Of a stretch of DNA of 51,120 nucleotides, positions 12,649 through 19,134 are shown one piece after another (position 1 is the first letter of the stretch; each line of letters starts with the position of its first letter). This DNA is from Halogeometricum pallidum JCM 14848 (GTDB lineage: Archaea; Halobacteriota; Halobacteria; Halobacteriales; Haloferacaceae): positions 52,571-103,690 of the forward strand of contig NZ_AOIV01000037.1 in NCBI RefSeq assembly GCF_000337095.1, written 5' to 3'. The translations under genes and the position numbers were made by a program. A model generated the notes under the pieces. It was not told where the DNA came from, ran no database searches, and was given only the letters and a program-made list of their open reading frames with translations.

Positions 12649-13488
12649 CTACTCGCGTAGTTCTCGGAGTCGGCTCGGCATCAGGCTCTCGCCCCGTTCC
12701 TGGCGGTCGGCGGCGCGACTCGCCGCCTCGACGCTCGCGAACGCGACGAGCGCGCCGGCGGCCACGTCCGTCGCCCAGTGGATGCCGAGGTACATCGTCG
12801 AGACGGCGATGGACACCCCGAGGAAGACGGCGACGGGCGTCCACCGCGGGTAGACGCCGCGGAACCGCCACGCGAGGAGCGCGACGGTGCCCGACAGCGA
12901 GGTGTGCAGCGACGGGAAGACGTTCGTGTTCACGTTCACCTGACTCGTCAGCAACTGCGCCTGCGGCCAACTGTTGTACAGGAGCGGTTGCACCATATCC
13001 GGCATGAAGTTCCGCGGCCCGTAGGCGACGAAGAGGATGTAGCAGAGCAGGCCGACGCCGTAGTTGGTGATGTAGGCGAACAGGACGACGCGGAGGGGAC
13101 GGGACTCCTCGTACATCGCGTACGCCGCCAGCGGAAACACGAGGAGGAACACGTAACCGAAGATGTAGACGAACCCGAAGTACGCCGTCAGCGCCGGCGT
13201 CGCGAACGACTGCACGAACGCGACGGTGCTCCCCTCGATGGCGTGGATGTAGCCGGTGATGTTCAGTCCGATGAGCCACGACAGTTCGACGCCGATATCG
13301 CGGATGACGCCGTTGGCCGCGAGGACGACGACGAGGGCGATAAACACCGGGGCGACCGCGCGCGCGTTCGCCCGGACCGTTCGAGGAGCGGTTCGGAGCC
13401 GCGACGGCCCGACGACGAGCACCGCGGCCGTGACGAGGAGCGCGAACACGCCCGCGCCGACCTGCAGGACGACGTCGAGGAGCGCCAT
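12649..13488 (-). CDS. PAP2 superfamily membrane phosphatase
   Basis: A 279-residue membrane protein of the PAP2 (phosphatidic acid phosphatase type 2) superfamily, closest to the inositol-phosphoceramide-synthase-like branch. Signature parts are YGPRNF (about 164-169), VFPSLHTSLSGTVALL (PSxH, about 200-215) and STMYLGIHWATDVAAGALVA, in which the catalytic His and Asp face the outside of the membrane. The substrate would be a lipid or isoprenyl phosphate. The ATG shares its A with the stop of the upstream lipoprotein gene (TGATG at 13490-13486), so translation is coupled and the two products probably work in one process. Confidence 0.87.
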   Translation of the reverse strand: MALLDVVLQVGAGVFALLVTAAVLVVGPSRLRTAPRTVRANARAVAPVFIALVVVLAANGVIRDIGVELSWLIGLNITGYIHAIEGSTVAFVQSFATPALTAYFGFVYIFGYVFLLVFPLAAYAMYEESRPLRVVLFAYITNYGVGLLCYILFVAYGPRNFMPDMVQPLLYNSWPQAQLLTSQVNVNTNVFPSLHTSLSGTVALLAWRFRGVYPRWTPVAVFLGVSIAVSTMYLGIHWATDVAAGALVAFASVEAASRAADRQERGESLMPSRLRELRE

Positions 13489-15458
13489 CAGTTCCCCTCC
13501 AACAGCTTCCCGTCGGAGTACTGATAGCCCGCGTCGCGGAACGCCTCCCTCGCTCGGTCGGCGTTCAGTTCGCCGTCGGTTCCGAAGAACGGCGTCACGG
13601 AGTTTTCTCCGTCCCACCGCAGGTCGTCGGGGACCCACCCGGTCCCGGCGAGCGGACTCATCGCGGGCCGCGCGTAGCCGCCGAACACGTCGTCCACGAG
13701 GAACGATTGGTCGACGAGTCGAGCCAGCGTGTTCCTGAACCGGGGATTCGTCATCGGCGGCCGGCCGGCGTTGTGCCCGAGGATGAACGGCGTCTCCGAG
13801 CGGCCGACGAGCAGTTCGAGGTCCGGCGCGCGGCCGATGCGGGGGACGGTCGAGGCGCCGACCGTCGTGCCGGTCACGTCGGCGTCGGCGTCCGCGACCA
13901 TCTCGACGGCCGTCATGTCGGAGCCGACGACCTGCACGGACAGCCGTTCGAACTCGGGGGGCTGGGCCGGGAAGCCCGCCTCCGTCGACGCCTCGAAGAG
14001 GAAGTGCTCGTCGAACCGTTCGAGCACGAGCGACTCCCGCGGGGTGTTCTGGGCGAACGCGAACGGGCCGCTCCCGACCGGCGGGATGTTGTTCGTCACG
14101 ATGGCCTCGGTTGCGGGCCCGATTTCGATGCCGCTGACCGACGCCCGCGACGTCCGCTCCTGCCAGATGTGCTTCGGGAGGACCGGCACGGTGAACGCCC
14201 GCGTCGCCAGTTTGGGTTCGCACTCGACGAAGTCGAACTCGACGGTGTGCGTTCCGGTCGCGCGCACGTCGGCGACGAGGCTGTTCCGTCCCTGGAACCG
14301 CGGCGCGGGGATGCGCGTGTCGCCCTCGTCCTCGGTCGTCGTTCCCGTTTCCATCGACGTGTCCGCGAGGAGGCGGTGCGTGAACGCCACGTCCTCGGCG
14401 GTGAGCGACTCGCCGTCGTGCCACGTCAGGTCCGGTCGGAGCCGCACCGACGCGCTCGGCGCGTTCCCGCCGCCGGAGAACGCCCACGACTCGGCCAGCC
14501 ACGCCTCGACGCCATCGCCCGTCTCGACGCCGAGCGAGTCGTACAGGAGGCCCGTGATGAGCCCGTCGCGGCGGTACTCGACCGACAGGGGGTTGAGATT
14601 CTCCGTCGCCCGCTTGTCGGTCGTCGCCGTTCGGAGCGTGCGCGCCTCGCTCGCCCCGGTCGTACCGTCGGTTCGGGTCGGCGTCTCAGTCGGTGTCGCC
14701 GTCGGAGTTAGGGTCGGTGTCGCCGTCGAGGACGTGATCGGCGACGACGAGTTGGAGTTCGACGTCGCTCTGACCGTTCCGTCGCCCCCGTTGAGCGTCG
14801 ACGCGCCGGCCGCGGGAGTGGCGTCGCCGTCGCTGCGCGCCAGCGATAGATAGCCCAGCGGGGAGTTGAGGTCGGCGGTTCGCCAGTTCCGGTAGTTGTC
14901 GGTGCGCGCCGCGCGGATGTCGTCCGGGAACGCGAGGAGGGTGAACGGCTGGGTCCGCGCGATGCTCCGCTGGAGTTCGTACACCGCCTCGCGTCGCTCC
15001 GCGCCGGTCGTCGTCCGCTGGGTCTCCAGCAGGTCGTCGACGTCGAGGTTCGCGTAGCCGAACGGGTTCTGCCAACCGGGGGCGTCGGCGAACCGCGAGT
15101 GCAGGAGCGAGTAGAGCCCGTCGGGTTCGTGAAACTGGTCGGGGAGCCGTGCGACGAACAGCTCGAAGTCGTTCTGCACCAGTACCTGCCGGAGCAGTTC
15201 CTCGCTCGCCATCGGCGTGACCTGCGCGTCGATACCGGCCGCGCGGAACCACGCCGCGACCTGACGGGCGAGGCGCAGGGCGTAGGGGTCGGCGTCGGCC
15301 GGGACGGTTTTGATATCGAGGGAGACCTGGTTCGCCGACCGCCAGCCCGCGACCGTCCGCAACCGACGCACACATCCGCCGGAGAGTGCAGTCACGCCTG
15401 TCGCGAGCGTCCCGAGGACGGCTCGCCGACGGACTGCGGAGGGCGACGACTGTGGCAT
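13488..15458 (-). CDS. Peptide-type ABC substrate-binding lipoprotein with permuted domain order
   Basis: A 656-residue exported lipoprotein with a twin-arginine motif VRRRAVLGTLA (8-18) and lipobox LSGGC (Cys28). The family is SBP_bac_5 (DppA/OppA-like), but the order is unusual. Residues about 43-205 resemble the end of a normal family member: ADPYALRLARQVAAWFRAAG, a central strand, FGYANLDVDDLLE and LQRSIARTQPFTLLAF. A Thr/Ser/Pro linker follows (about 230-265). Then comes the normal beginning: ENLNPL, LLYDSLG, LAESWAFS and LRPDLTWHDGESLTAEDVAF at about 285-360. The chain ends at ADRAREAFRDAGYQYSDGK, just where family members usually continue into the segment found here at the N-terminus. 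No permease or ATPase genes are adjacent; the coupled partner is a PAP2 protein. Confidence 0.85.
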   Translation of the reverse strand: MPQSSPSAVRRRAVLGTLATGVTALSGGCVRRLRTVAGWRSANQVSLDIKTVPADADPYALRLARQVAAWFRAAGIDAQVTPMASEELLRQVLVQNDFELFVARLPDQFHEPDGLYSLLHSRFADAPGWQNPFGYANLDVDDLLETQRTTTGAERREAVYELQRSIARTQPFTLLAFPDDIRAARTDNYRNWRTADLNSPLGYLSLARSDGDATPAAGASTLNGGDGTVRATSNSNSSSPITSSTATPTLTPTATPTETPTRTDGTTGASEARTLRTATTDKRATENLNPLSVEYRRDGLITGLLYDSLGVETGDGVEAWLAESWAFSGGGNAPSASVRLRPDLTWHDGESLTAEDVAFTHRLLADTSMETGTTTEDEGDTRIPAPRFQGRNSLVADVRATGTHTVEFDFVECEPKLATRAFTVPVLPKHIWQERTSRASVSGIEIGPATEAIVTNNIPPVGSGPFAFAQNTPRESLVLERFDEHFLFEASTEAGFPAQPPEFERLSVQVVGSDMTAVEMVADADADVTGTTVGASTVPRIGRAPDLELLVGRSETPFILGHNAGRPPMTNPRFRNTLARLVDQSFLVDDVFGGYARPAMSPLAGTGWVPDDLRWDGENSVTPFFGTDGELNADRAREAFRDAGYQYSDGKLLEGN

Positions 15459-15569: not shown

Positions 15570-16097
15570 GTGTCGCTCTCAGGTCCCGGTCTCGAACACC
15601 TCGCGTACCTCCTGTTCGCCGTCGTGACACACGCCGCCGTCGGCTACGCGCTCGTCTCCGCGTTCACCGACCGGCCGCCGCGCGCCGGCGTCGTCGGCGC
15701 CGTCCTCCCGGACGTCGACCTGCTGTTCCCGCTCGCGTGGACGTTCCCGTTCGACCACCGCGGACTGACACACACGCTCGCCTTCGCCGCGGCCGCCGCG
15801 GCCGTCGTCGCTCTCGCGCGGCGCCCGCGCTGGTCGGCCCGAGCGGCGGCGCTCGGACTCTGCTCGCACCTCCTCGTCGACTCGTTCACGAAGAGCGGCG
15901 TCGCGTGGCTCTACCCGCTCGCAACCGAGCGGCTGGCCGTCGCGGCGTCGGTTCACTCGGGGTGGGGGGCCGCCCTCCTCTGGGGGTTCGCCGCACTCGC
16001 GGTGGCCGCCGGCCGGCGGTCGTCTGACGCGGGAGAAACAGCCGGCAGCGCGACGGAGTCGGGAATGTCGGAGACCCCTGACGCGCCCCGCTTCTGA
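15570..16097 (+). CDS. YdjM-like membrane-bound metal-dependent hydrolase (DUF457 type)
   Basis: A 175-residue membrane protein starting at GTG 15570. It has the family pattern of membrane-bound metal-dependent hydrolases of the YdjM/DUF457 group. These are VVTHAAVGYAL near the N-terminus, VLPDVDLLFPL (about 45-55), HRGLTHTLAFA (about 66-76) and CSHLLVDSFTKSGVAWLYPL (about 100-119). The His and Asp residues would bind metal at the membrane surface. Four hydrophobic segments are visible, and a 30-residue polar tail ends the protein. It is divergent from the permuted lipoprotein gene. The substrate is unknown for the family. Confidence 0.82.
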   Translation: MSLSGPGLEHLAYLLFAVVTHAAVGYALVSAFTDRPPRAGVVGAVLPDVDLLFPLAWTFPFDHRGLTHTLAFAAAAAAVVALARRPRWSARAAALGLCSHLLVDSFTKSGVAWLYPLATERLAVAASVHSGWGAALLWGFAALAVAAGRRSSDAGETAGSATESGMSETPDAPRF

Positions 16098-16150: not shown

Positions 16151-17542
16151 ATGGCACCAAATCGGCGAGTGCTCCGCGGTCTGTTCGCGTCGTTGGTCCT
16201 CGTCTCTTCGGTCGTCCTCGTCGTCGGCTACGTGGACGCACAGCGCAGCAACGACCGGGTGACGGGCGACCCGGCGGTCGAGCAGGCGTTCCGAACGGGC
16301 GACCGAACCTCGGTCGTCGCCCCGCGCGACGACATCACCGTCGTGGCGACGGACTCAAACGCGTTCGTGAGCGACGAGAGCGACAGCCCCCGCGCGCAGG
16401 CCGAACTCACGGCCTTCGCGCCCGACGGTAGCATCTACTACTATCAGAACGACCACACGCGCTACTGGGACGTCGACCGCGTCCCGAACACCACGGCGAC
16501 GGTCGAGTTCGTCTACGCCGACCACCTCGACGCCGACGAGTGCGGCGAGACGGTCTGCACCCGCAACGGCGTCGAACGCGTGAACCTCACCACCGGCGAG
16601 TCCACCGAACTGTTCAGCCGCATCACGCCGGGGAAACACTCGACGCGGTGGCACGACGTGGACCGCGTCGGCCCCGACCGCCTCCTCGTCGCCGACATCT
16701 ACCAGGACCGCGTGTTCGTCGTCAACACGACCACGAATCTAACGACGTGGGAGTGGGACGCGCAGTCCGACTTCGACGTGGCGACCAGCGGCGGGCCGTT
16801 CCCCGAGGACTGGACGCATCTCAACGACGTGGAGTCCGTCACCGTCGACGGCGAGTCGGCCGTGATGGTGAGCCTTCGAAACCACGACCAGGTGGTCTTC
16901 ATCGACCCGCAGGAGGGGCTGATGAAGGAGTGGACGCTCGGGAGCGACGGCAACCACTCGACGCTGTACGAGCAGCACAACCCCGACTTCATCCCCGCCG
17001 AGGACGGCGGGCCGGCGCTGCTCGTCGCCGACTCCGAGAACGGCCGCGTCATCGAGTACCAGCGGCGAGGCGGCGAGTGGGTCCAGTCGTGGACGTGGAC
17101 CGACCGGCGGATGCAGTGGCCGCGCGACGCCGACCGACTGCCGAACGGTCACACCCTGATAACCGACTCGAACGGCGACCGCACGTTCGAGGTCGACGAG
17201 GAGGGCGAAGTCGTCTGGACCGCGTCCATCGGGTTCCCGTACGAGTCCGAGCGATTGGGCACGGGCGACGAGAGCGCCGGCGGGCAGAGCGCCGCGAGCC
17301 TCGGCCTCCCCTCGCGGACGGCGTCCGAACTCGAACCGACGCTGACCTCGCGCGTCGCGTCGCTGGTCCCGGCGACCGTGCGCAACGCCATCGCGTACGC
17401 CTTCCCGCGTTGGGTGGGCCTCCTCGAAGGTCTCGCCGTCCTGGCGCTCCTCGGGTCGCTGCTGGCGTGGGGGACGCTGGAGTACCGCTGGTCGAGCCGT
17501 ACCGTTAGCTTTCAGTTGCCGGTCCGCATCCGGAGGAAGTAG
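16151..17542 (+). CDS. Arylsulfotransferase (ASST)-like beta-propeller membrane protein
   Basis: A 463-residue protein with an N-terminal hydrophobic anchor (about 9-27), a long extracytoplasmic beta-propeller (about 40-370) and a C-terminal membrane segment (about 423-443) with a basic tail. Propeller repeats typical of the arylsulfotransferase family are WHDVDRVGPDRLLVAD, WTHLNDVESVTVDGESAVMV and RDADRLPNGHTLITDSNGDR. Several N-glycosylation sequons are present. Bacterial ASSTs transfer sulfate between phenols. Haloarchaeal relatives have no proven reaction and may be binding or sulfation enzymes for surface glycans. The next gene starts two bases after its stop, so the pair forms an operon with a glycosyltransferase-like protein. 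Confidence 0.75.
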   Translation: MAPNRRVLRGLFASLVLVSSVVLVVGYVDAQRSNDRVTGDPAVEQAFRTGDRTSVVAPRDDITVVATDSNAFVSDESDSPRAQAELTAFAPDGSIYYYQNDHTRYWDVDRVPNTTATVEFVYADHLDADECGETVCTRNGVERVNLTTGESTELFSRITPGKHSTRWHDVDRVGPDRLLVADIYQDRVFVVNTTTNLTTWEWDAQSDFDVATSGGPFPEDWTHLNDVESVTVDGESAVMVSLRNHDQVVFIDPQEGLMKEWTLGSDGNHSTLYEQHNPDFIPAEDGGPALLVADSENGRVIEYQRRGGEWVQSWTWTDRRMQWPRDADRLPNGHTLITDSNGDRTFEVDEEGEVVWTASIGFPYESERLGTGDESAGGQSAASLGLPSRTASELEPTLTSRVASLVPATVRNAIAYAFPRWVGLLEGLAVLALLGSLLAWGTLEYRWSSRTVSFQLPVRIRRK

Positions 17543-17544
17543 AC

Positions 17545-19134
17545 GTGGCAGACGCTTCGCTCCGTTCCCGGTTCGCCCGGTCGGTCCGCTTCGAGGACGA
17601 CCCTCCGTTCGACGCGCGCGACCGCACGTGGCTCGCGCTGGCGGTTCTCCCGGCGTTGGTCTCCGTCGCCGTGTACCTCGCGACGAACCCCTACCCCGCC
17701 TACGGCGCGGGACTGTACGCGCAGATCGCACGCGAAATCGTCGCTAACGGCTACCTCCCGCCGGCGCGCATCCCCGGCTACACGGCCGACGGCGTTCCGT
17801 TCGCCTATCCGCCCCTGCAGTTCTACGTGTTCGCCCTGCTCCGCGACGTGGGCTTCGGACCGGTCGCCGTGGCCCGCTTCCTTCCCGCGGTGGCCGTCGT
17901 CGCCGTGCAGATTCCCGTGTACGTGCTCGCCCGCGACCTCCTCGACTCGCGGCCGGCGGGGACCGTCGCGGCGGCGGGCGTCGCGCTGAACCCGCAGATA
18001 CTGGAGTGGCATCTCTCGGCGGGCGGGGTCGTCCGCGGCTTCGCCTTCCTGTACGCGCTGACGGCCATCTGCGCGGGCTACCGGCTGTTCACGACCGGCG
18101 ACCGCCGTGCGCTGGTCGCGGGGGTCGTCGTCTTCGGGATGACGGTGCTGTCGCACCCGACGTACACCCTGTTCACCGTCGTGAGCTACCTGCTGCTCTG
18201 GCTCGCGCTCGACCGGTCGCTCGTCGGTCTCGTCCGCGGCGCAGCCGTCGGCGTAGGCGGCGCGGTCATCGCCAGCCCGTGGCTCCTCTGGGCCGTCTCC
18301 ACGCACGGACCGGGCGTGTTCACCTCGGCCGCGGGGACCCACGGCGGCATCGGCGGCGGTGTCGAGGCGATATTCGGCGGCATCTCGATGTACACGCTCG
18401 TTCCCCTGCTCGCCGCCGCGTACCTCCTCGTCGTCCGCCGGGACCTGCTCCTCCCGGCGTGGGTGGTCGTCGCGGAACTGCTGTTCCAGCAGCCCCGGTT
18501 CGTCTACACCGTCGGAACGTTCGCCCTCGTCGCCGCCGCCTTCGACGCCGTCCGGCGCTTCTCCCTCTCCGAGCGGTTCGCCCGGTCGGTCGGCGGACGG
18601 ACGGGCGGCGTCGACTGGCGCGCCGCGAGCGTCGCGGTGCTCGTCGTCGTCGCGTCCCTCGGCGGGGGGACGGTCATGGCCTATCAGAACACGCTCCCGT
18701 CGGACCCCTCCACGCCCGAGTTCCTCGACGACGAGGCGGTGGACGCGATGGCGTGGGCCGAGACGGAGACGCCGCCGGACGCGACGTTCGTCGTCCTCGG
18801 CGACGGCGCCGAGTGGTTCCCGGCGCTGACGCAGCGGACGATTCTGGTCGGCATGTGGGGCGTCGAGTGGGAGGACCCCGGGAAGTTCGAACGACACATC
18901 GACGCCTTCGTCAACGGCTCGACCTGCCAGAGCGCCGGGTGCGTCGAGACGGCCATGCACTCGGTCGACGCGCGCCCCGACTACGTCTACGTTCCGAAGG
19001 GACACTACACGGTCCGCGGCGTCAGCGAGGTCCAGTTCGGAACGCTCGAACGCTCCTTCGAGGCCTCGCCGCGCTGGGAACTCGCCTTCGAGAACGACGG
19101 CGTCGCCATCTACCGCGCGACCGGCGGCGAGTAG
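17545..19134 (+). CDS. Polytopic GT-C-like glycosyltransferase (PMT/GT39-like)
   Basis: A 529-residue protein starting at GTG 17545. It has about ten membrane segments between residues 30 and 390, then an extracytoplasmic C-terminal domain of about 130 residues. The first outer loop (YPAYGAGLYAQIAREIVANG) and the FAYPPLQFYVFALLRD segment resemble GT-C membrane glycosyltransferases. These use lipid-linked sugars on the outer face of the membrane. No clear acidic catalytic pair is seen in the first loop, so the call is a fold-level one. Operon linkage to an ASST-like propeller protein suggests that the pair modifies surface glycans or glycolipids. Confidence 0.6.
   Translation: MADASLRSRFARSVRFEDDPPFDARDRTWLALAVLPALVSVAVYLATNPYPAYGAGLYAQIAREIVANGYLPPARIPGYTADGVPFAYPPLQFYVFALLRDVGFGPVAVARFLPAVAVVAVQIPVYVLARDLLDSRPAGTVAAAGVALNPQILEWHLSAGGVVRGFAFLYALTAICAGYRLFTTGDRRALVAGVVVFGMTVLSHPTYTLFTVVSYLLLWLALDRSLVGLVRGAAVGVGGAVIASPWLLWAVSTHGPGVFTSAAGTHGGIGGGVEAIFGGISMYTLVPLLAAAYLLVVRRDLLLPAWVVVAELLFQQPRFVYTVGTFALVAAAFDAVRRFSLSERFARSVGGRTGGVDWRAASVAVLVVVASLGGGTVMAYQNTLPSDPSTPEFLDDEAVDAMAWAETETPPDATFVVLGDGAEWFPALTQRTILVGMWGVEWEDPGKFERHIDAFVNGSTCQSAGCVETAMHSVDARPDYVYVPKGHYTVRGVSEVQFGTLERSFEASPRWELAFENDGVAIYRATGGE

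Follow-up and report, generated by a model that had tools for sequence, protein, structure and literature searches.

Evidence for a Natural Circular Permutation in a Haloarchaeal Family-5 Binding Lipoprotein Encoded beside a PAP2 Enzyme

The window, by which we mean the whole 51,120-nucleotide stretch of Halogeometricum pallidum JCM 14848 DNA analyzed here, encodes a binding protein (SBP) whose sequence shows a naturally occurring circular permutation of the family-5 SBPs (OppA/DppA type); the old termini are joined, and by alignment the new ends fall within lobe 2, in the loop that follows the AGY helix. A circular permutation had been proposed in the sequence-only reading, and it is borne out by complementary profile matches, a rotation scan with controls, matches of the two half-profiles to paralogues, AlphaFold2 scores, and conservation across the class. 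Taken whole, the best explanation comprises a permutant, one two-lobed fold, a partnership with a PAP2 enzyme, and an origin by duplication; we assign it a probability of about 0.82. The features of the locus are listed below, with model positions referring to a profile of normal-order family-5 SBPs (SBP5s).

13488..15458, minus strand: circularly permuted SBP_bac_5 lipoprotein gene, 656 aa, stop at 13488-13490
15372..15458, minus strand: Tat signal and lipobox, residues 1-29, with RRR at 10-12 and Cys29
14835..15350, minus strand: moved C-terminal SBP5 part, residues 37-208, model 337-483 and beyond, with PDB matches
14673..14834, minus strand: Thr/Pro-rich linker, residues 209-262, with pLDDT<50 at 214-267; family median 5 aa
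13491..14672, minus strand: normal N-terminal SBP5 part, residues 263-656, model 12-339, with its end in the loop that follows AGY..DG
12649..13488, minus strand: PAP2_3 membrane enzyme, AUR1-like, 279 aa, directly downstream of the SBP
16151..17542, plus strand: arylsulfotransferase-like gene, divergent, near the SBP-PAP2 pair in 21/60 loci
17545..19134, plus strand: weakly PMT_2-like membrane glycosyltransferase-type gene, near the SBP-PAP2 pair in 27/60 loci

A YdjM-family membrane protein is also encoded divergently (15570-16097, plus strand), its start lying ~110 bp from that of the SBP. Rfam gave no match near the genes.

Order of the Fold Parts

The Pfam family SBP_bac_5 (PF00496) matches the window SBP with 141 bits (curated cut-off 32.4) and covers only residues 317-651, corresponding to profile positions 2-284 of 368. 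Against the normal-order reference profile, which was built from 26 haloarchaeal SBP5s and spans 503 positions, two matches were obtained: residues 37-188 with model positions 337-483 (46.5 bits), and residues 263-645 with model positions 12-339 (98.5 bits). The two model ranges abut in swapped order, overlapping by at most three positions, and each part of the fold is present once. This agrees with the earlier claims that the segment normally ending DppA/OppA-type proteins sits behind the lipobox Cys, and that the chain stops where this moved segment should begin; the protein ends in ...AREAFRDAGYQYSDGKLLEGN, five residues past the string quoted as its end. A second, normal C-terminal segment, which had been named as grounds for refuting the permutation, was not found in the window SBP.

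The canonical N-to-C order of the SBP5 fold was recovered neither in these profile matches nor in a rotation scan, in which the window SBP was opened and rejoined at every fifth residue and the best single profile match was scored. The score rose from 98.7 bits for the native chain to 154.8 bits when the chain was opened within the linker; the three normal-order paralogues used as controls all peaked at their native start. Profiles of both halves also clearly matched abutting parts of the normal-order paralogues L063, L064, L066, and L069 of the same genome, with a weak match of the N-segment in L070 and L071. In a phmmer search of the PDB, the N-terminus weakly matched C-terminal parts of SBPs, for example, residues 46-172 with residues 373-499 of Yersinia DppA. 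The breakpoint corresponds to approximately residue 340 of mature DppA, which we take to fall inside lobe 2 by the published domain limits of DppA; with the new ends inside lobe 2, the lipid-anchored N-terminus would enter the fold via this lobe.

The search for homologues of the same order in other haloarchaea, which had been suggested as a check, showed that 72 of 72 aligned proteins share the permuted order, and the Tat RR and lipobox Cys are likewise kept in all 72. Two motifs sit in the moved segment (residues 37-208): GWQNPFG, which is nearly invariant among the aligned homologues, and an acidic D/E-P-D, present in most of them.

Genomic Context and the PAP2 Partner

The sequence-only reading had noted that no transporter genes are adjacent, and we indeed found no ABC genes beside the window SBP; in the clade of the window SBP, DppB or DppC was found near the SBP in 0 of 60 loci. 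The gene directly downstream encodes the PAP2 enzyme, its start codon overlapping the SBP stop (TGATG) and closely preceded by GGAGG. In all 89 loci where both genes were found, PAP2 directly follows the SBP in the same orientation, and the pairing extends to the divergent members L204-L206 of the clade. In a comparison of 79 genomes made by hand, 49 had strong matches to both genes and the other 30 had weak matches or none to either, no genome being mixed; it should be noted that shared ancestry inflates this co-occurrence. A close permuted paralogue in the same genome (L068/L104, contig C41, 5696-8104) lies away from any PAP2 or ABC genes. By eye, the gene after L068 on this contig looks TFB-type.

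The partner matches PAP2_3 with 58 bits (cut-off 27), and its catalytic motifs FPSLH and HWxxD are conserved. Its AlphaFold2 model (pLDDT 93.9, pTM 0.90) is closest to the inositol phosphorylceramide synthase AUR1, the best PDB fold matches being 9vj4 and 9ivc. The PAP2_3 family and the FPSLH and HxxxD motifs are common to the partner and the AUR1 and PgpB-type PAP2 enzymes, whereas identity to these is ~16-18%, the TM is ~0.5, and the partner is archaeal.

The link between the SBP and PAP2 is one of genomic association; we give roughly even odds to the proposal that the window SBP is a ligand-capturing or regulatory partner of the AUR1-like PAP2 enzyme, and does not feed an ABC importer. The SBP may capture a ligand, as the largely kept D/E-P-D and the near invariance of GWQNPFG would suggest, and would then present a polar substrate to the PAP2 enzyme; alternatively, it would gate the action of PAP2 on outer-leaflet lipid or polyprenyl phosphates. 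The arylsulfotransferase-like and PMT_2-like neighbors hint at surface lipid or glycan work, and are not consistent across loci.

In a competing explanation, the permuted SBP does no more than supply an ABC importer whose genes lie at another locus, and the PAP2 neighbor is a passenger. Most other permuted SBP5s lead complete DppBCDF operons, which indicates that the permuted fold serves ABC import: outside the clade of the window SBP, complete DppBCDF sets accompany permuted SBPs in ten haloarchaeal loci, L208 being an exception. One of the ten is in the same genome as the window SBP, on contig C6, where a complete DppBCDF operon (L103, 1853-7793) is led by a second permuted SBP5 that is more distantly related and shares the breakpoint. 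Normal-order SBP5 importers in this genome mean that permeases are available, and most homologues retain the acidic D/E-P-D, which lies close to the peptide-amine site of DppA. We nevertheless consider import through a distant transporter unlikely, if by no means negligible, given the lack of DppB and DppC near the 60 loci, the position of PAP2 immediately downstream in 89/89 loci including the deepest members, and the matched presence and absence of the two genes over 79 genomes. The permuted SBP5s in DppBCDF operons (L103, L197-L203, L207, L209, L214, L218, and others) are of the same family as the window SBP and mostly share its breakpoint region; unlike it, they are ABC-linked, and several are of separate origin from its clade.

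Predicted Structure and the Joint between the Old Ends

AlphaFold2 was run on the window SBP with the 72-sequence alignment and judged by pLDDT (85.3) and pTM (0.83); the only long low-confidence stretches were residues 1-36 and 214-267. By a simple estimate, a pTM of 0.82-0.85 is expected if all ordered residues make up one rigid unit, and of 0.60-0.66 if the N-segment is placed independently. The observed pTM fits one unit and gives no indication of the two separate domains that had been named as the other grounds for refutation. Foldseek against the PDB matched SBP5 structures, the sequential aligner, which cannot display a permutation, covering the larger piece only (~405 columns, TM ~0.5 of target). 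Profile searches of the PDB listed 60 of 116 matches for the window SBP and 60 of 110 for L214, a permuted SBP5 from another archaeal class; in neither listing was there a match that ran contiguously through the permuted order. We infer that the window SBP forms a single two-lobed unit that would bind ligand at the outer face of the membrane, a flytrap fold that would be tethered through lobe 2.

The Thr/Pro linker that had been described as joining the old ends is real in the window copy (~214-267), but it is not a general feature: the joint is 64 aa in the window SBP, and 2-50 aa, with a median of 5, in 71 relatives. Judged by these alignments, the Thr/Pro stretch is an expansion peculiar to the window copy. 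Its length and disorder resemble a domain linker, and tandem SBP genes as well as one in-frame SBP fusion are known in the haloarchaea studied here, as would suit a fusion in which the C-terminal remnant of one SBP5 gene was joined to another SBP5 that had lost its own C-terminus, so that the product would have two distinct domains. Such a fusion is nonetheless highly improbable, as the pieces complement each other exactly and do not overlap, many relatives have a linker of 2-5 aa, the two halves have been conserved as a pair throughout the class, and the pTM of 0.83 is above the estimate for an independent N-segment. An assembly or frame artefact is refuted, since 72 aligned proteins from numerous independent assemblies, some of them complete genomes, all have this order.

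Permuted SBP5s across the Family

At E<=1e-30, 292 of 391 genomes of the class have homologues of the window SBP; the matches at the top of the listing are full length and in permuted order, and those further down cover only parts of other SBP5s. One homologue (L050, 6001-7778) is split across two ORFs by a frame break or sequencing error. A census of 25 haloarchaeal genomes showed 43 permuted proteins among 96 SBP5 ORFs; counting ~20 further genes with full Pfam matches outside these ORFs, the permuted share is ~37% (43 of ~116 SBP5 genes). A tree calculated on re-ordered columns needs seven order changes, at least five of which are forced by well-supported branches, with some long branches and uncertain deep joins.

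Several permuted SBP5s have normal-order sisters at 40-60% identity. Residues 328-658 of the permuted L171 pair with residues 74-407 of L066 (51%), and residues 92-327 with 410-636 (44%), the signal region being unmoved; the same swapped blastp blocks are seen in L137/L127, L128/L142, and L153/L186. Another breakpoint, at model ~443, is found in L185 (377-2791, minus strand), which adjoins DppBCDF and is 61% identical to its normal-order sister L126. On the tree and these sister pairs, we reject the idea that all permuted SBP5s go back to one origin. Among the normal-order proteins, L178 (800-1987, plus strand) is interrupted by a stop beside a DppBCDF set and is likely a decaying gene.

A possible duplication intermediate is L188 (514-5259, minus strand), a single 1582-aa ORF with two in-frame SBP5 copies and one signal region; the 69% identity of its halves fits a duplication route to permutation, a mechanism covered in a review (PMC3320104). 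The permuted order would have arisen when the gene was duplicated in tandem and in frame and its outer parts were then lost, the signal peptide probably staying N-terminal.

Restriction of the permutation to haloarchaea is likewise rejected, as it was found in another archaeal class and in the Bacillota. L214 (5827-7443, minus strand) and L215 (5083-6708, plus strand), from a non-haloarchaeal class of the same Phylum, are very clean permuted SBP5s beside DppBCDF. In the Bacillota, ~14 junction-spanning matches occur in 8 of 101 genomes, and the six that were checked are all permuted; several of the Bacillota proteins (L217-L222) adjoin Dpp permease or ATPase genes. Two bacterial genomes contained no permuted SBP5 among 51 matches.

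The window SBP is homologous to DppA/OppA-type SBPs (PF00496, cluster C) over both halves, with lipoprotein export and all fold parts in common; it differs in that its halves are swapped at ~DppA residue 340 and that its clade is without adjacent ABC genes. In the open-licence literature, neither permuted family-5 SBPs nor an SBP-PAP2 pair of this kind turned up, the only precedent being Treponema TpMglB-2 (Tp0684, "Cluster Bc"), a natural permutant of a membrane-tethered binding protein, for which the authors suggested that permutation may be an adaptation to anchoring (PMC4990184). TpMglB-2 has a type I, cluster B sugar-binding fold, is of another family with another breakpoint, and is ABC-linked, whereas the window SBP matches family 5 only and lacks the type I fold that characterizes Cluster Bc.

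It is conceivable, at a little short of even odds, that SBP5s have been repeatedly permuted in haloarchaea, perhaps since anchoring through lobe 2 is useful, and that one clade left ABC transport to form an SBP-PAP2 surface system, in which a flytrap receptor would feed or gate a lipid-phosphate enzyme. The permuted order would also explain the split annotation matches of such proteins. Circular permutants found in nature tend to be presented as rare, isolated events. In this one large family there are many permutants that have closely related sisters of normal order, along with another breakpoint and an apparent tandem-duplication intermediate, so that the origin and retention of permutants become testable, and most of the haloarchaea sampled (49/79 genomes) carry an uncharacterized SBP-PAP2 pair.
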